DNA of 64,000 nt from Cytophagaceae bacterium (GTDB lineage: Bacteria > Bacteroidota > Bacteroidia > Cytophagales > Spirosomataceae). The stretch lies in the NCBI GenBank assembly GCA_027491195.1, contig JAIXWQ010000005.1, forward strand, positions 1-64,000, written 5' to 3'. A program made the translations under genes and the position numbers. This document shows, in pieces, positions 27,105-50,113 of this stretch. Positions within the stretch are counted from its first letter, which is position 1. Every line of letters begins with the position of its first letter. The notes under the pieces are model-generated. The model searched no databases. It saw only the letters and a program-made list of their open reading frames with translations, and had not been told where the DNA came from.

Positions 27105-27869
27105 ATGAGTACACAAATAGACCGCCTAAAAAATACGATTGCGCCCCTACGAGAGGCATTAGTTCAACATCCGATTAATTCCTTCATTCAAAGTCCAGCT
27201 GAATTAGAAGTGTTTATGCAGCATCACGTTTTTGCTGTTTGGGATTTTATGTCCTTAGTTAAGAAGTTGCAGCAGGAATTTACCTGTGTTGAACTTCCTT
27301 GGAATTCGAAAGGCCCCGCCGAAGTTCGTTACTTAATTAATGAGATTGTCTTAGGTGAAGAGTCGGATGTAGACCAAAATGGTGTCTATATTAGTCATTT
27401 CGAACTTTATTTACGTGCTATGGAGGAATTGTCTTTCATGCCCTCTCCTTTTCTACAAGAGTTGAGAACGTATGCAAGTTTAGATGAATTACTTTTGGCC
27501 ATACCAAAGGCTGCGATTCCGGAGTCTGTGAAGCAATTTTTAAGCTTCACTTTTTCTGCGATTAAAAATAGAACCCCTGAGGAGGTGGCAGCCATCTTTA
27601 CCTTTGGAAGAGAAGATATTATCCCTGAAATGTTCCAAGTGATTGTGGATCAATTGAAAAGAGATGCGCCGGAGAAGGTAGAAACCTTAGTCTATTACCT
27701 AGAACGGCACATTGAAGTAGACGGTGGTCATCACAGTGAATTAGCATATCGGATGATGGATTATCTGTGCGGTGATGAGGAGGAAAAATGGGCACGCGCT
27801 ACGCAAGCAGCAGTTGAATCGTTACAGGTGAGACTTAAGTTGTGGGATGGTATTGTCCACAATAGATAA
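27105..27869 (+). CDS. DUF3050 family heme-oxygenase-like protein
   Basis: All-helical 254-residue cytoplasmic protein of the DUF3050 family, part of the heme-oxygenase-like superfamily in which many members are non-heme di-iron oxygenases. Candidate ligands are the conserved Glu/His positions in HHVFAVWDFMSL, AEVRYLINEIVLGEESD, GREDIIPEMF and DGGHHSELAYRMM; the paired helices carrying E and H-x3-E type residues support a metal site. I start at ATG 27105, one base after the XdhC stop, rather than at an in-frame ATG 24 bases earlier inside xdhC. Biochemical function unknown. A heptamer array begins two bases after its stop codon. Confidence 0.8.
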   Translation: MSTQIDRLKNTIAPLREALVQHPINSFIQSPAELEVFMQHHVFAVWDFMSLVKKLQQEFTCVELPWNSKGPAEVRYLINEIVLGEESDVDQNGVYISHFELYLRAMEELSFMPSPFLQELRTYASLDELLLAIPKAAIPESVKQFLSFTFSAIKNRTPEEVAAIFTFGREDIIPEMFQVIVDQLKRDAPEKVETLVYYLERHIEVDGGHHSELAYRMMDYLCGDEEEKWARATQAAVESLQVRLKLWDGIVHNR

Positions 27870-27870
27870 G

Positions 27871-27919
27871 AGAGTATAGAGTAGAGAGTATAGAGTAGAG
27901 ATTATAGAGTAGAGATATG
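27871..27919 (+). repeat. heptamer array in the 3' region of the DUF3050 gene
   Basis: Seven consecutive 7-base units in register: AGAGTAT, AGAGTAG and AGATTAT variants alternate. The array starts two bases after the TAA and precedes the terminator. The same units occur on the minus strand at 48369-48438 after the UxaA-type dehydratase gene, in the same orientation relative to the gene. Confidence 0.85.
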
Positions 27920-29936: not shown

Positions 29937-29951
29937 GTGACATATTGTCAC
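29937..29951. promoter_or_regulatory. palindrome in the dnaK/desaturase divergent spacer
   Basis: GTGACA and TGTCAC are perfect 6-base inverted arms around TAT. The heptamer CCTTTTG occurs on both sides, at 29931 and 29951, exactly 20 bases apart. The site lies 69 bases from the dnaK start and 78 from the desaturase start, a good place for an operator acting on both. No regulator can be named. Confidence 0.5.
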
Positions 29952-30028
29952 CTTTTGATTTAAAATCTTTTATCGAACGGAAAAAATGGCGAGATGTGGT
30001 ATATTTACAATCTAAAATTGAGATCATT

Positions 30029-31033
30029 ATGTCAGAAGTGAAAGATTTTAATTGGGTGGAAGGCCCAGAGCCACATAGAGTTCGAACGCGTGCCATCGTA
30101 AGAGCGCATCCGGAGGTGAAAAATTTGATAGGAAAGAATCCAATGACTTTTGTTTGGATCCTAGCCTGTGTAGGAATGCAAATCGCGATTGCCTATTTTA
30201 TTAAAGATTATCCTTGGTGGGCAATTGTAGGTGTGGCTTGGATTTTTGGGGCTTTTCCTACGCATACCCTATTCGTATGTATTCACGAATCAGCACACAA
30301 TTTGATATTCAAAAAGGATGGATGGAACGTATTTGCGGGGATCATTGCGAATTTCCCCTCTCTTTTTCCTACCGCTATTTCATTTAAGAATTTCCACCTG
30401 AAGCACCACGCTTTTCAAGGTGTACACGAATTAGATGCTGATTTACCTGATTATTGGGAAGCCAAATTGATCGATAATTATTTCATTGGAAAAATGATCT
30501 GGTTATTATTATTCCCTTTCTTCCAAGGAATTCGTACGGCTCGTTGCATCGAATTAGCGGTGTTTGATCGTCCAGTGATTTTGAATATTATTGCCCAAAT
30601 CGCTTTTGACGCTCTTATCGTGTACTTCTGGGGTTGGTCAGCGCTGGCTTATATGGGATTAAGTTTTTTATTCTCCGTAGGTCTTCATCCGCTGGGAGCT
30701 CGTTGGATACAAGAGCATTTCTTAGTGTTAGACAAGAATCAAGAGACTTATTCTTATTATGGTAACTTGAATGGTATCAATATGAATGTAGGATACCATA
30801 ACGAACACCATGACATGCCCTCTATTCCTTGGAATAATTTACCCAAATTAAAGGCGGCTGCTCCAGAGTTTTATGATAATTTAAAATACCATACTTCCTT
30901 TGTGAAATTGTTCTTTACTTTCCTCTTCTCTCAAGAAATTGGCTTGTATTCACGTATTGCCCGTAAAGAACGTGGTGGTGTACCTTTGACGGATAAGTCC
31001 ATGCCGGATGTGGAGCTAGTAAATAAAGCTTAG
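30029..31033 (+). CDS. DEGS1-like sphingolipid desaturase/hydroxylase
   Basis: Membrane fatty-acid-desaturase-superfamily enzyme of 334 residues that resembles animal dihydroceramide delta-4 desaturase (DEGS1/DES1) from end to end. The N-terminus (residues 6-38, DFNW, PH, IVRAHPEVKNLIG) matches the sphingolipid-desaturase-specific N-terminal domain (DFEW, PH, YPEIKSL). The three di-iron histidine boxes are HESAH (86-90), HLKHH (123-127) and HNEHH (257-261), close to DEGS1 spacing, and ETYSYYG...NVGYHNEHHD is shared. Four or more hydrophobic segments lie between. Start at ATG 30029; upstream in-frame codons cross the promoter region. The likely substrate is a dihydroceramide or related sphingoid lipid, with desaturation or C4-hydroxylation as outcome; that is inferred from family. 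Confidence 0.85.
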   Translation: MSEVKDFNWVEGPEPHRVRTRAIVRAHPEVKNLIGKNPMTFVWILACVGMQIAIAYFIKDYPWWAIVGVAWIFGAFPTHTLFVCIHESAHNLIFKKDGWNVFAGIIANFPSLFPTAISFKNFHLKHHAFQGVHELDADLPDYWEAKLIDNYFIGKMIWLLLFPFFQGIRTARCIELAVFDRPVILNIIAQIAFDALIVYFWGWSALAYMGLSFLFSVGLHPLGARWIQEHFLVLDKNQETYSYYGNLNGINMNVGYHNEHHDMPSIPWNNLPKLKAAAPEFYDNLKYHTSFVKLFFTFLFSQEIGLYSRIARKERGGVPLTDKSMPDVELVNKA

Positions 31034-31044
31034 AGCTTTATTTA

Positions 31045-31079
31045 AAGCATAAAGTATAAAGTACAAAGAATAGAGATGG
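31045..31079 (+). repeat. heptamer array in the 3' region of the desaturase gene
   Basis: Five 7-base units in register (AAGCATA, AAGTATA, AAGTACA, AAGAATA, then GAGATGG) start 12 bases after the stop codon. The first unit is identical to the first unit of the array following the convergent GH65 gene (31162-31196, minus strand). Confidence 0.8.
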
Positions 31080-31126
31080 TATCGCCCCTGGCGATGAGTA
31101 TAGGAAATGTTTTTCACGCATTAATT

Positions 31127-31157
31127 AAAAAAGGGATCCATATGAGATCCCTTTTTT
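31127..31157. terminator. bidirectional terminator between desaturase and GH65 genes
   Basis: AAAAAAGGGATC (31127-31138) pairs with GATCCCTTTTTT (31145-31156). It lies between two inverted heptamer arrays. A separate small hairpin, ATCGCC/GGCGAT, is at 31081-31095. Confidence 0.9.
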
Positions 31158-31161
31158 AATA

Positions 31162-31196
31162 TATACTTTATACTTTATTATTTGTGCTTTATGCTT
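31162..31196 (-). repeat. heptamer array overlapping the 3' end of the GH65 gene
   Basis: On the minus strand five units in register (AAGCATA, AAGCACA, AATAATA, AAGTATA twice) begin within the last codons of the GH65 gene, so that its stop codon is part of the first units, and run to the terminator. Confidence 0.8.
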
Positions 31197-33459
31197 TCTC
31201 GAGCACCCTCGCTTCCCCATGCACAAACACCGTCAACTCAGGACCAGCCAGGTTCGTGATTTCTACTCCTGTTTGCTTCACGGCAATATTTAATTGGTTA
31301 GCACGGAAGTTGATTTTGAAGGAGAATTCGGTCCATTGTTTTGGCAAGAATGGATTAAAGTGTAATGAATGACCTTTTAGACGCATTCCACCAAAACCTT
31401 TGATGATCGACATCCAGGTTCCTGCCATACTCGTAATGTGGCAACCGTCTTCTGTGTCGTTATTATAATCATCTAAATCTAAGCGTGCAGCACGCGTGTA
31501 GAATTCGTATGACTTATCTTCTTTTCCTAGTTTTGCAGCTAAAATGCTGTGAACACAAGGGCTTAAGGAGGATTCGTGAACGGTAATCGGTTCGTAAAAA
31601 TTATAATTGCGTTCTAAGTCTTCTAAGCTGAAATCATCCTCAAAGAAGTACATTCCCTGTAATACGTCTGCCTGTTTGATGTAGCAAGAGCGTAGAATGC
31701 GATCCCAAGACCATTTTTGGTTGATCGGACGTTCTGCAGCTATTGTTTCAACAGGTGCAATTACTTTGTCTAAGAAACCATCTTGTTGTAAATAAATACC
31801 TTTATTCTCATCAGAAGGCAGGTACATATTAGCAATGATATGCTGGAATTGATCGATTTCTGTAGCAGTAAAGGCTGTTTTAGCGATTTTAGCCGCAGCC
31901 TCTGAAGGATAATTCTTTTGAATTTCAGCGTAAACCTCTAAGGTATATTTTAGACACCAAGTTGCGATGTAATTCGTATACCAGTTATTGTTAACGTTAT
32001 TTTCGTATTCATTAGGACCAGTAACGCCTAACATCACATATTTCTGCTTGTCTTCTGACCAGTTAACACGTTGAGCCCAGAATCGCGCGATGCCTACTAA
32101 AACCTCCCAGCCGTACTCGACTAAATGCTTGCGATCATCTGTGTAATTCACGTAATCCATGATCGCATAAGCGATAGCACCGTTTCGGTGGATTTCCTCG
32201 AAAGTGATTTCCCACTCGTTGTGGCACTCTTCCCCATTCATCGTAACCATCGGATAAAGTGCAGCACCTTTGTTAAAACCAAGTTTACCCGCGTTTTCGA
32301 TAGCGCGATCTAATTGCTTCCAACGGTAAATCAATAAGTTCTTAGAAACTTTCGCTGGTGCAGTACCTAAATAGAACGGAATACAGTATGCCTCTGTATC
32401 CCAATAGGTAGATCCACCGTATTTTTCACCGGTAAATCCTTTAGGTCCAATATTCAAACGATCGTCCTCCCCTGTATAGGTTTGGTTCATTTGGAAGATA
32501 TTGAAACGTATACCTTGTTGTGCAGATGCGTCGCCCGAAATGATGATGTCGTTAATTGACCATTTAGCAGCCCAAGCTTCAGCTTGTTCAGCTAACATTT
32601 TGGCGAAACCTTTTGCCGAAATACGTGCTAGGTAATCAGAGGCGATGTTTTCGAACGAAGCAGTTGGGTGATTTTCAGAAGAAATATTAACCGCATACTT
32701 AATGATGGTTAATTTCTCCCCTTGCTTCGCAGCTAATGTATAGGCAAGTTCGCTGTATTTTTCGCGGGTGGTGGAGGATGCTTTTGCCTCGATTTTTTGC
32801 CCATTGGATTGGATTTCAATCTGCTGAGCGGTGATAACTTCGAAACCGGTTTTCTTGGTTTTGGACCAAACAAAATTCGAACCTACCTTCACCTCGTCCC
32901 AAAACTTCTCATCGTAATTAGAATCCTTATTTTTGATATCACCATCAATGAAGGCTTTAACAACTATATCTTCCGTGAAGTTAATGGGTGTAATTGTGTA
33001 AGAGATGACACCTGATTCGTCATCCGCCATACTATTCAGGCGAATGGACTCGATAGCTAAACGCTTTCCGTTACGAAGGGAGATTTCACATGTACGAAGG
33101 ATATGACCTTCTTTCATGTTTAATTCACGGTAGAAGGAATGAATTTCACTGGTGTGTAAATCGACTTCCTCACCTGATATTTGGATAGATAAACCATTCC
33201 AGTTAGCGGCATTTAATACTTTAGCAAAATATTCTGGATAGCCATTCTTCCACCAGCCTACGCGGGTTTTATCTGGATAATAGACTCCTGCTACGTAATT
33301 TCCTTGTAAAGTTTTTCCTGTGTAAGTCTCTTCAAATGAACCCCTTTGTCCCATTCGGCCATTGCCTAAAGAAAAGATGGATTCAGTTATTTCATTGTAG
33401 GCAGGATGAAATTGGTCTTCAATGACCTTCCATTCATCTATTTTAAGATATTGCTTCAT
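31189..33459 (-). CDS. glycoside hydrolase family 65 phosphorylase, probably maltose phosphorylase
   Basis: Cytoplasmic phosphorylase that splits an alpha-glucoside with phosphate to beta-glucose-1-phosphate and glucose. The 756 residues fit GH65: N-terminal beta-sandwich (1-270), helical barrel (320-690) and C-terminal sheet. The catalytic-acid region NGEECHNEWEITFEEIHRN near residue 415 and the substrate/phosphate segments NIGPKGFTGEKYGGSTYWDTEAY and VMLGVTGPNEYENNVNNNWY in pieces are visible. No signal peptide. pgmB, which uses its product, is the upstream gene on the same strand, and amylase and transporter are divergent, so maltose is the likeliest substrate; trehalose or kojibiose phosphorylase cannot be excluded. 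Confidence 0.9.
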   Translation of the reverse strand: MKQYLKIDEWKVIEDQFHPAYNEITESIFSLGNGRMGQRGSFEETYTGKTLQGNYVAGVYYPDKTRVGWWKNGYPEYFAKVLNAANWNGLSIQISGEEVDLHTSEIHSFYRELNMKEGHILRTCEISLRNGKRLAIESIRLNSMADDESGVISYTITPINFTEDIVVKAFIDGDIKNKDSNYDEKFWDEVKVGSNFVWSKTKKTGFEVITAQQIEIQSNGQKIEAKASSTTREKYSELAYTLAAKQGEKLTIIKYAVNISSENHPTASFENIASDYLARISAKGFAKMLAEQAEAWAAKWSINDIIISGDASAQQGIRFNIFQMNQTYTGEDDRLNIGPKGFTGEKYGGSTYWDTEAYCIPFYLGTAPAKVSKNLLIYRWKQLDRAIENAGKLGFNKGAALYPMVTMNGEECHNEWEITFEEIHRNGAIAYAIMDYVNYTDDRKHLVEYGWEVLVGIARFWAQRVNWSEDKQKYVMLGVTGPNEYENNVNNNWYTNYIATWCLKYTLEVYAEIQKNYPSEAAAKIAKTAFTATEIDQFQHIIANMYLPSDENKGIYLQQDGFLDKVIAPVETIAAERPINQKWSWDRILRSCYIKQADVLQGMYFFEDDFSLEDLERNYNFYEPITVHESSLSPCVHSILAAKLGKEDKSYEFYTRAARLDLDDYNNDTEDGCHITSMAGTWMSIIKGFGGMRLKGHSLHFNPFLPKQWTEFSFKINFRANQLNIAVKQTGVEITNLAGPELTVFVHGEARVLEKA

Positions 33460-47578: not shown

Positions 47579-48319
47579 TTAGTTGTTTAGATAAATGAAT
47601 CCACCATCAATTGGATAATCACAACCTGTGATAAATGCGGCTTCATCGGAACATAAATATAAAGCTAAATGTGCAATTTCTTGTGGTTGGGCCATACGAC
47701 CTATCGGTTGAGTGGCTGATAATTTGGCAAAGATCTCCGCTTGATTGTCCGGGTAGTTTTTAGCGATAAAACCATCCACAAATGGCGTATGGACTCTACC
47801 AGGTGAAATGCAATTACATCGAATACCTTGGTGAATATAATCTTTCGCAACAGATTGCGTCATCGATTTTATCGCCCCTTTTGTCATTGAATAGCCAAAA
47901 CGATCTGGTATTCCCACCGATGCAGCCACCGATGCCATGTTTAAAATCACCCCCGACTTTTGCTGAATCATGCCCGGAATAAAGGCATACATGCAGTGAT
48001 ATGCCCCTTTTACATTCACATCAAAGATATTTTGGAAATCTGAAGGACTCGTTTTCTCCAAATTACCAATTTGTGGAATCCCTGCATTATTCACTAAAAT
48101 ATCAATCGAACCTAATTCATTAGCAATAGCCTGAACTGACTCTATATTCGTTATATCCGCTAAATGTAAGGTAATTTCGGATGGCAAGGGATCCGCAGCA
48201 GGTTTCAAGTCAATCACATGTACCTCAGCCCTTTGTGCTAAAAAGGTGAGCGCAATCGATTTTCCGATGCCGGAGCATCCGCCGGTGATGACGACTTTTT
48301 TGTGGGTTAGTTTGAACAT
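47579..48319 (-). CDS. short-chain dehydrogenase, probable 2-keto-3-deoxy-L-fuconate dehydrogenase
   Basis: SDR of 246 residues: TGGCSGIGKS at 12-21, NNAG near residue 78, catalytic Ser in MASVAASVG, YSMTK (Tyr near 145, Lys near 149) and DGGFIYLN at the end. The Asp in HVIDLKP after beta-2 suggests NAD. The sequence style (VVITGGCSGIGKSIA, ISPGRVHTPFVD) fits the family that oxidises 2-keto-3-deoxy-L-fuconate to the 2,4-diketo acid, the substrate of the FAH hydrolase two genes downstream. Its ATG abuts the heptamer spacer directly, and no -7 box is visible there. Confidence 0.8.
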   Translation of the reverse strand: MFKLTHKKVVITGGCSGIGKSIALTFLAQRAEVHVIDLKPAADPLPSEITLHLADITNIESVQAIANELGSIDILVNNAGIPQIGNLEKTSPSDFQNIFDVNVKGAYHCMYAFIPGMIQQKSGVILNMASVAASVGIPDRFGYSMTKGAIKSMTQSVAKDYIHQGIRCNCISPGRVHTPFVDGFIAKNYPDNQAEIFAKLSATQPIGRMAQPQEIAHLALYLCSDEAAFITGCDYPIDGGFIYLNN

Positions 48320-48466
48320 AGTTTTTAGTCGCTAGTCTCTAGTCACTAGTCGCAAGTCACTAGTTGGTTATAATCTCTACTCTATAATCTCTACTCTATA
48401 CTCTATACTCTATACTCTATACTCTATAATCTCTACTCTACTTTATTCTTTGTGCTTTATTCTTTA
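48320..48466 (-). repeat. heptamer-only spacer between SDR and UxaA-type dehydratase genes
   Basis: The whole spacer, including the dehydratase stop codon, divides into 21 heptamers without a break. On the minus strand, leaving the dehydratase, the first units resemble AAGNATA/AAGCACA, then come eleven units of the TAGAGTA/AGATTAT kind, one joining unit, and finally about six units of the TAGTGAC/TAGCGAC kind that run up to the SDR start codon. Three different repeat families thus share one 7-base register. No promoter or terminator is visible inside. Confidence 0.9.
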
Positions 48467-50113
48467 CAAGGATACCCCTCTTCTCCAGAACATAAAATCA
48501 TCCTGTCCCAGATCCATAGCTTTGGTATTAATTTCTCCTGATGCTAATTGAATAATGTATTCTAAAACTTCCTCTCCCATCTGTTCTACCGTTTTCTCTC
48601 CTGAAATGATAGGTCCGCAATTAATATCAATAATTTCAGGAAGCTTTTCAGCTAGCTTCGTGTTAGTTGATAACTTGACCATTGGACTGATTGGGTTTCC
48701 TGTCGGAGTTCCTAAACCGGTCGTAAATAATTGAATCGTAGCTCCTGCACCAGCCATTCCGGTGGTAGCAAGAACATCATTTCCTGGCGTACAAACTAGG
48801 TTTAAGCCCTTTTTAGTCACATACTGCCCATAACCTAACACGTCTTCAATAGGTGAAGATCCGGCCTTCTTAGCAGCTCCTGCTGATTTAATAGCATCAG
48901 TGATTAAACCATCTTTGATATTTCCTGGTGAAGGATTCATATCAAAACCTGCTCCTACTAAGGCAGCTCTTCGTGCATATTCGCGCATCAAGAAACCGAA
49001 ATTATCAGCGATTTCCTTCGTAACTGCTCTGTTTTGTAATTCTTGCTCTACACCACATAGTTCAGGGAATTCAGCAATCATCACTGTTCCACCAAGACCT
49101 ACTACTAAATCGGCAGTATGTCCGATGGCTGGATTGGCTGAAATACCGGAGAATCCATCAGAACCGCCACATTTTACTCCTACGCGTAAAGCTGATAATG
49201 GAGCTGGTTTACGTGTTTGTTTATTGATTTCAACAAGACCTTTGAATGTTTGAAGGATCACTTCATTCAACATATTTTCAACCCCACTTCCATTATCTTG
49301 TTGTTGTTCAAAAATGTAAAGTGGTTTAGAGAAGTTCGGATCTTTCTCCTTTAATTTCTCTTTAAATACTTCGATTTGAGAGTGTTGGCATCCAAGGCTA
49401 AGCACAGTAATTCCTCCCACGTTCGGGTTTAAGCAATAACCTGCTAATAAAGCGCACAAGTTTAGCGAATCATCTTTGTTTTCGCCGCAGCCACTTTCAT
49501 GTGTTAAGAATTTGATACCATCTACATTAGGGAATTGAGCTGATTTATGAACTAAAACAGATGCCGTTGATTCTGTATCTATTTCTAATGCTTTGCCTTC
49601 TGCTAATTGGGCCCCTAATTGTTGTACTTTCTGAGTGAATGGATCTAGTTTTTGGAAGCCTAATCCATTTAGGAAGGCATTCTTTAATAATTCAATGTTT
49701 CTGTTTTCACAGAATACCAAAGGAATAACTAACCAATAGTTTTGTGTACCTACTTGGCCATCAGCTCTATGGTAGCCATTGAACGTACGGTTTTGGAACT
49801 TGGAAACATCAGGTGCTGTCCAATGATAATCCTCTTGCTTGCCCTTGAAATCGGTAGCAGCATGATGCAGATTAAATGTATGAATCAATCCACCTTTTGG
49901 GATATCTTGACTTGCGAGACCTACTAGAACACCATACATGGTTGCTTTTCCATCCTTAGTAATCGCCTCGGTGGTGAATTTGTGTTTAGCCGCAATATCA
50001 TCTTGTAAGGTAATTTGATTCCCCTGGTGGTTAATCACGGTACCTTTTGGTAGATCTTGTAGGGCTACTAATAAATTGTCTGTAGGGTTGATTTGTAAAT
50101 ACGTTTGACTCAT
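48464..50113 (-). CDS. UxaA (altronate dehydratase) family enzyme, probable L-fuconate dehydratase
   Basis: The 549-residue protein has an N-terminal SAF domain (residues about 8-95) and the UxaA-type dehydratase domain with GYHRADGQVGTQNYW near residue 114, HESGCGENKDD near 210, SLGCQHSQIE near 244 and VGVKCGGSDGFSGI near 305, whose cysteines would hold an Fe-S centre. True altronate dehydratase belongs to galacturonate catabolism, but there are no uxaC/uxaB neighbours here; the gene sits between a fucose mutarotase and fucose-pathway SDR. The Campylobacter jejuni fucose locus also contains UxaA-type genes, so fuconate is the likely substrate by inference. Overlaps the mutarotase gene by four bases. 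Confidence 0.85.
   Translation of the reverse strand: MSQTYLQINPTDNLLVALQDLPKGTVINHQGNQITLQDDIAAKHKFTTEAITKDGKATMYGVLVGLASQDIPKGGLIHTFNLHHAATDFKGKQEDYHWTAPDVSKFQNRTFNGYHRADGQVGTQNYWLVIPLVFCENRNIELLKNAFLNGLGFQKLDPFTQKVQQLGAQLAEGKALEIDTESTASVLVHKSAQFPNVDGIKFLTHESGCGENKDDSLNLCALLAGYCLNPNVGGITVLSLGCQHSQIEVFKEKLKEKDPNFSKPLYIFEQQQDNGSGVENMLNEVILQTFKGLVEINKQTRKPAPLSALRVGVKCGGSDGFSGISANPAIGHTADLVVGLGGTVMIAEFPELCGVEQELQNRAVTKEIADNFGFLMREYARRAALVGAGFDMNPSPGNIKDGLITDAIKSAGAAKKAGSSPIEDVLGYGQYVTKKGLNLVCTPGNDVLATTGMAGAGATIQLFTTGLGTPTGNPISPMVKLSTNTKLAEKLPEIIDINCGPIISGEKTVEQMGEEVLEYIIQLASGEINTKAMDLGQDDFMFWRRGVSL

Follow-up and report, generated by a model that had tools for sequence, protein, structure and literature searches.

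The spacer between two metabolic genes in the window (the whole stretch of DNA analysed, 64,000 nt) appears to be built of short tandem units, which raises the question of how such an array was assembled and whether it serves the genes that it separates. The spacer had been described in the initial annotation as running from the stop codon of the dehydratase gene, included, to the base before the ATG of the short-chain dehydrogenase (SDR) gene, and these limits (48320-48466, minus strand) proved exact. The heptamer array is real: the lag-7 self-match of the spacer is 0.73, whereas 2000 dinucleotide-preserving shuffles average 0.31 (sd 0.04) and reach 0.46 at most, and all three of the unit families proposed are present. 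Read on the coding strand, the spacer consists of a module A (26 nt) followed by 17 heptamers (ten C units, one TAACCAA unit and six D units) and a final CT (table 1). Module A closes with the 5-nt stub TAAAG, as do many A arms of the palindromic elements described below, and this stub and the 2-nt CT break the register, contrary to the description of the spacer as 21 heptamers in a single register. The length itself (147 = 21 x 7) was considered as a meaningful property and rejected as a coincidence: it is divisible by 7 because stub and tail add up to 7 nt (5 + 2), and the lengths in sister species leave varied remainders. The C module contains 14-mer sub-repeats, and exact TAGAGTATAGAGTA occurs nine times in the genome studied (G000), four of them in the focal spacer (reversed control, 0). 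Degenerate units (CTTGCGA, CTAGAGA, and CTAAAAA) are found within module D. The array is one-sided, with no partner arm, and no RNA fold was detected on either strand of the spacer (z = +1.64 and +0.37).

Table 1. Features of the window discussed in the text, with their coordinates and strands.
Feature	Coordinates	Strand	Remarks
Upstream gene, D-galactarate/altronate dehydratase type	48464..50113	-	PF20629, PF04295, SAF
Downstream gene, short-chain dehydrogenase (SDR)	47579..48319	-	PF13561
Module A: TAAAGAA TAAAGCA CAAAGAA TAAAG	48441..48466	-	begins at the dehydratase stop codon
Module C: ten units TAGAGTA / GAGATTA	48371..48440	-	
Joining unit TAACCAA	48364..48370	-	
Module D: six CTAGYGA-type units, then CT and SDR ATG	48322..48363	-	
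Left arm, A units	31043..31076	+	element between convergent fatty-acid-desaturase and GH65 genes
Core: small hairpin TATCGCCCCTGGCGAT, linker with gaaatgttttt, terminator-like hairpin aaaaaagggatc..gatccctttttt	31077..31161	.	
Right arm, inverted A units	31162..31197	-	overlaps the 3' end of the GH65 gene
Second array, C units	27867..27916	+	between the stop codon of a DUF3050 gene, which it adjoins, and a terminator-like hairpin

A total of 340 kb of the genome was screened for tandem arrays (stretches excluding L090 and L093, where hits were already known). Eleven segments with a period of 7 nt were identified, compared with three for periods 4-6, 8-13, and 15 together (one each for periods 6, 9, and 12 and none for periods 4, 5, 8, 10, 11, 13, and 15) and six for period 14, the double of 7. 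Five randomised sets contained no period-7 array. The suggestion that the spacer is more than one local microsatellite had been made dependent on such a genome-wide search, and it is borne out: other arrays exist, randomised sequence gives none, and among periods 4-15 only period 7 and its double are enriched. In a larger sample of 444 kb (the window and L085-L103, with L090 and L093 included, about 18% of the genome), clusters of two or more units were counted in gaps of at least 20 nt between ORFs called by a greedy script rather than a trained gene finder; 32 clusters were located in gaps and one inside an ORF, and the arrays are thus intergenic. Two CTAGCGA arrays (G000:C6:540587-540639 and G000:C8:69-114) were noted within about 120 bases of contig ends, which suggests that long arrays break the assembly and that the array counts are underestimates.

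The nearest named relative of the genome is Aquirufa antheringensis 30S-ANTBAC (dehydratase 97% identical), identifying the host, a freshwater bacterium, as an Aquirufa. The A pattern AAAGMAYAAAGMAYAAAG was found in 10 of the 38 genomes of the genus, with 159 overlapping three-unit matches in G000 and none in 28 genomes, and its backwards control gave one hit, in another genome than the ten. The core of the palindromic elements was detected in 13 of the 38 genomes, in three or more pieces in ten and as a single weak piece in three, and the genomes with the A pattern are exactly the ten with three or more pieces. The B pattern (three times RAATGGT) is present in 15 of the 38, with 13 matches in G000 and 6 for its backwards control there, a poor control given that the reversed pattern still fits TAAATGG-type arrays. 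Among 241 genomes drawn from the order, a draw with only three other Aquirufa, the D pattern CTAGYGACTAGYGACTAG was found in two, G000 (27 matches; reversed control, 0) and G248 (3 matches), and its control gave one hit in a third genome. G248, which belongs to another family, carries TAGTGAC-type heptamers at three loci (L153, L155, and L157), one of which (L153) has inverted partner arms between convergent genes.

Gene ends are the preferred location. In the 444 kb, clusters occupy 9 of 26 gaps between convergent genes, 6 of 84 between co-directional genes, and 1 of 47 between divergent genes, and the excess in convergent over all other gaps (9/26 versus 7/131) has a p value of 1.3e-4. Orientation could be scored in small numbers: 9 of 12 non-palindromic clusters in co-directional gaps lie in the sense of the genes, and 9 of 11 clusters in convergent gaps are nearer to the gene that they follow in sense. 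That 20 of 24 clusters follow a stop codon in sense was discarded as evidence, this being true by geometry in convergent gaps. In-sense stop codons are present in families A, B, C, and D, and an array of these families that reaches into a gene end would still end the protein, a possible reason for their tolerance at this place; the CAAAGTT family is free of stops, and stop-richness therefore cannot be the general reason. At the desaturase gene of the window (29945-31033; orthologues L310-L317) the last codons and the stop codon run into the array and vary between species, and arrays seem to rewrite protein C-termini. The second array of the window has an apparent counterpart, recognised by the same hairpin and not aligned gene by gene, which is composed of A units in G019 and of AAGAGGT units in G022.

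The dehydratase-SDR spacer was compared across relatives (45 loci, with both genes in a measurable position at 41). All seven loci with a dehydratase identity of at least 94% over the whole protein have heptamer spacers. In the group with 82-85% identity the spacers are mostly arrays of other units (e.g., AAGAGGT or TAGACGT), often with CTAGCGA units in addition, and in a clade with A. beregesia, A. nivalisilvae, A. ecclesiirivi, A. aurantiipilula, and A. rosea the spacers measure at most 21 nt and contain no array. In G000 and eight sister species the spacer is heptameric in every case (9/9), with lengths of 147, 166, 172, 106, 149, 145, 99, 108, and 123 nt (modulo 7: 0, 5, 4, 1, 2, 5, 1, 3, and 4). 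Comparison of G000 and G030, where the stop-proximal module is A, with the other seven sisters, where it is B (TAAATGG/TGAATGG), indicates that this module varies and that the C module is retained. In all seven B-led sisters (7/7) the B module and the next TAGATTA/TAGAGTA module are in one 7-nt register from the stop codon; in G000 and G030 the C units are out of phase by 5 because A ends in TAAAG. The shared register proposed initially thus does not extend across three families and survives for the B and C modules of seven sisters, where it may be inherited from one ancestral array. The first modules of G008 and G023 differ by whole units, graded units occur at the TGAATGA/TAGATTA junction, and the start-proximal module is not constant, being D in some species and of the CGGACT or ACTGACA type in others.

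The spacer is probably a mosaic of three modules from a dispersed heptamer repertoire that grow by 7-nt slippage and are replaced as modules. Under this mosaic model one Aquirufa clade would carry dispersed 7-nt tandem repeats between genes, above all at gene 3' ends. Array length would change by whole 7-nt units, most likely through replication slippage, as suggested by the differences between species (one genome per species). Whole modules would be replaced by another family, a change that is seen between species, presumably through recombination, either among copies elsewhere in the genome or between relatives. From the period shared by unlike units the initial annotation had suggested that the array is more than one microsatellite, which stands, and that there is a mechanism or a binding requirement with a 7-base step. 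Nothing found demands a protein that binds with such a step, and the joined families are better explained by modules that replace each other at one site, given the different modules present in orthologous spacers. The focal array is most likely a tolerated one-armed accumulation and not a regulatory site, since it has no partner arm and no fold. Against neutrality, the spacer stayed heptameric at 99-172 nt in nine species, which a neutral array need not do.

The same comparison bears on a functional role in the operon, with the array as a binding or ribosome-loading site (e.g., for a cold-shock-type protein) that sets SDR expression. Arrays do persist at this place in G000 and eight sisters despite sequence change, D units are located just upstream of the start codon in G000 and some relatives, and the accessible portion of MacGregor (2015, PMC4679880) proposes S1, Csp, or Csr proteins for TAACTGA repeats that precede start codons. 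Nevertheless, an operon element is an unlikely explanation: the unit families vary between sisters, the start-proximal module is not conserved, the two genes are separated by no more than 21 nt in one Aquirufa clade, and of the 47 divergent gaps in the 444 kb, where two genes start and none ends, a single one has a cluster.

Heptamer modules also occur as two arms of a palindrome. The arms of the element at 31031-31197 of the window (table 1) pair (fold z = -7.5 for 31028-31200), and its stable hairpin, flanked by an A run and a T run between convergent genes, makes it a predicted intrinsic bidirectional terminator. A blastn search of G000 with one A-core-A' stretch (L088:11779-11930) identified at least 89 pieces, a lower bound with 40 of 69 first-look candidates scored. 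Thirty loci were kept, corresponding to 25 distinct regions of which 16 lie between convergent genes. In the usual layout, from which many copies deviate, A units that begin close to a stop codon are followed by TTGGAATC-GCC-loop-GGC-GAT, a linker containing gaaatgttttt, either a terminator-like hairpin (aaaaaaggg..cccttttttt) or the mirrored first hairpin, and finally GATTCCAA and inverted A units. A known RNA family was rejected as an identity for the element: an Rfam search of five element-bearing loci (the focal spacer not among them) gave four matches up to E = 1, all of them below the gathering score. Modules at convergent gene pairs are often arranged as inverted pairs, which make up the basal stem of a two-sided terminator-like element, and such paired elements may act as terminators or have a 3'-end role.

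The arms were followed across species at four sites, where families were assigned by eye (families A-E were otherwise counted by regular expressions). At lmbE, both arms belong to one family in all ten readable sisters: A/A in G000, G030, and G023, a left and a right arm of the CAAAGTT/CAAAGAG type in G019, G008, G027, and G021, and C/C in G007, G002, and G014. Of the outgroups, G033 and G024 carry the TAAATTA type on both sides and G005 is discordant. The overall concordance (12/13) compares with 2.9 expected by shuffling, and none of 200,000 shuffles reached 12; rows left out were G006 and G022, from which the script cut no gap, G035 on account of its runs of N, and, of the two pieces from G014, the first. 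On a five-gene tree with low support at several nodes (0.06-0.6), the ten sisters require at least six changes of family. G008 and G023, the closest pair, are 96.6% identical in five genes; in their alignment the four 60-column windows that cover the gap have identities of 0.58, 0.18, 0.60, and 0.78, and every other window lies at 0.75-1.00. At the 31031 site, all eight sisters that are readable on both sides are concordant (p = 0.0026), with A/A in G000, G008, G014, and G023, B/B in G019 and G007, and C/C in G030 and G002, and there are at least two changes on the tree (G027 was left out at a contig end; G021 and G006 were not found). At these two sites examined across species the two arms are thus of one family, whichever family it is. 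When each family is counted once per site, six allele origins are obtained, all of them with matched arms. The 18 sister sequences of the two sites have fold z scores from -2.2 to -16.5, to which core and terminator hairpins contribute, and 8 to 34 bases of the left 45 are paired into the right arm.

The remaining comparisons are more mixed. Of the eight readable gaps at pdhB, seven are concordant and one, that of G007, is mixed (G002 and G008 were left out at contig ends). At leuA, A is present on both sides in G000, G030, and G023, only the right arm is present in G019, G007, G002, and G014, neither arm is present in G021, and G008 has no matched pair (G027 was not found). Nearest arm pairs at all fetched sites of G007 and G019 agree in 15 of 33 cases versus 8.1 expected (p = 0.006), or singly in 7 of 18 for G007 (p = 0.14) and 8 of 15 for G019 (p = 0.01). 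In G000, 29 of 34 arm pairs agree, a biased value because most of the loci came from the A-core-A' query. A test of the arm duplex gave p = 0.0002 at lmbE, where the own arm ranks eighth and thirteenth in the rows of G014 and G005, and p = 0.57 at pdhB, a value that says little because the halves tested also contained core hairpins. In 2 of 12 same-family pairs at lmbE the element is more alike than the genes (0.91 vs. 0.85 for G019/G027 and 0.90 vs. 0.83 for G000/G023), and part of the switching may therefore be an exchange of alleles between species. A tentative extension of the mosaic model, which we hold to be possible without giving it the greater weight, is that Aquirufa has an exchange system of short intergenic cassettes in which both arms of a 3'-end palindrome would be rewritten together between heptamer families while the flanking genes stay and stem pairing is kept; by the same process the focal array would have been assembled with a single arm.

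A mobile miniature element offers another reading of the palindromes, with the arms as terminal inverted repeats, copies that insert at gene ends, and the focal array as a degenerate remnant. Terminal inverted repeats around a shared core in many copies, the hallmarks of a miniature inverted-repeat transposable element, are indeed what is found, and the 31031 site of five outgroups has a plain terminator-like hairpin from which the arms are absent. We consider this reading quite improbable, since the different families at one site in sisters would need repeated insertion at one place and a search directed at Y1 (RAYT/IS200-type) transposases found no Y1-type RAYT (PF01797) in G000 (98% complete; control matches in 5 of 14 genomes). 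A REP/BIME system with a RAYT transposase was rejected on the absence of PF01797 from G000.

Plain microsatellites, formed from chance sequence by 7-nt slippage at each site without any module moving from one site to another, are very improbable: the unit-count differences, the 14-mer sub-repeats within the C module, the graded units at the TGAATGA/TAGATTA junction, and the report that heptamers outnumber other long simple repeats in many bacteria (Mrazek 2007, as cited in the available text of PMC4679880 and PMC4692102) would fit, but the same few families recur at many sites (A pattern with 159 matches in G000 and none in 28 of 38 genomes), a core element with arms is common to many copies, and both arms change together at two orthologous sites. 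Slippage is insufficient for the dispersed families, yet probably part of the process.

Short tandem heptamers (STRR) are known from the spacers of filamentous cyanobacteria, and the Aquirufa arrays resemble them in unit length and in location. No described counterpart in Bacteroidota was known to the initial annotation; the accessible sections of MacGregor (2015, PMC4679880) do report TAACTGA direct repeats in Beggiatoaceae, Cyanobacteria, and five Bacteroidetes, with "other heptamer direct repeats" in the same spacers of Gramella forsetii and Aequorivita sublithincola and also in Elizabethkingia spacers. Like the TAACTGA repeats as presented there, the Aquirufa arrays are 7-nt tandem repeats, largely intergenic, with other heptamers alongside and with close relatives that lack the array at the same place. 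The TAACTGA repeats consist of one unit, and in the orange Guaymas Beggiatoaceae genome most of them precede start codons, whereas Aquirufa has several families mainly at gene 3' ends. In the part of Rehm (2015, PMC4692102) that was available, 186 and 183 GGGAATC arrays are described for two Xanthomonas genomes, some of them inverted repeats and mostly between the same genes, with length and sequence that vary between close species. Unlike the Aquirufa arrays, these arrays and the GGGGAYT arrays of Nostoc are G-rich, quadruplex-forming, and of one unit type according to the same text. The 444 kb (about 18%) of G000 contain no exact doublet of TAACTGA, GGGAATC, or GGGGAYT. In the P6b stem of the Nostoc tRNA-Leu intron, degenerate heptanucleotide repeats pair as the two sides of a hairpin (PMC3488679, in part, citing Costa 2002); they resemble the Aquirufa arms in forming hairpins, in having two repeat classes, and in copy-number variation, but are located inside an intron at one gene, whereas the Aquirufa elements are dispersed, intergenic, and of several families. 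A heptamer satellite is named in Chloroflexus (PMC6749651), dispersed short repeats and hairpins are described inside the Nostoc hyp operon (PMC2408588), and a polymerase-footprint explanation for the predominance of heptamers is credited to Mrazek (2007; as cited in PMC4679880 and PMC4692102), each as given in the excerpts of these sources.

The repeats are of a known kind, and paired, co-switching arms were not found described in the literature searched, a search mostly outside subscription journals and little aimed at Aquirufa or convergent-gene palindromes that returned neither such repeats in Aquirufa nor two-arm switching. Seven bases are often the favoured long repeat unit in unrelated bacteria, and Aquirufa is a clean place to ask why: it has named strains with small genomes, it carries several families of heptamers, and its orthologous sites are found in different states, all of which suits it to separating slippage, recombination, and a dedicated enzyme as the maker or mover of arrays. 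Co-switching of the two arms is a covariation of whole units and suggests either that pairing of the stem is important or that a single event copies the two arms.

Two further repeats were observed beside these sequences. Downstream of pdhB in G002 (L238), a 15-nt tandem repeat agtccgaagggaatt occupies the gap to the contig end, and pieces akin to it (TCCGGACT/TTCGGACT) are seen again in several spacers of the sisters. At L093:11633-11830, GACTAA/TTAGTC units alternate with short mini-hairpins (e.g., TCGCGCAGCGA, other strand) in a run that adjoins heptamer arrays and represents a distinct short interspersed pattern.
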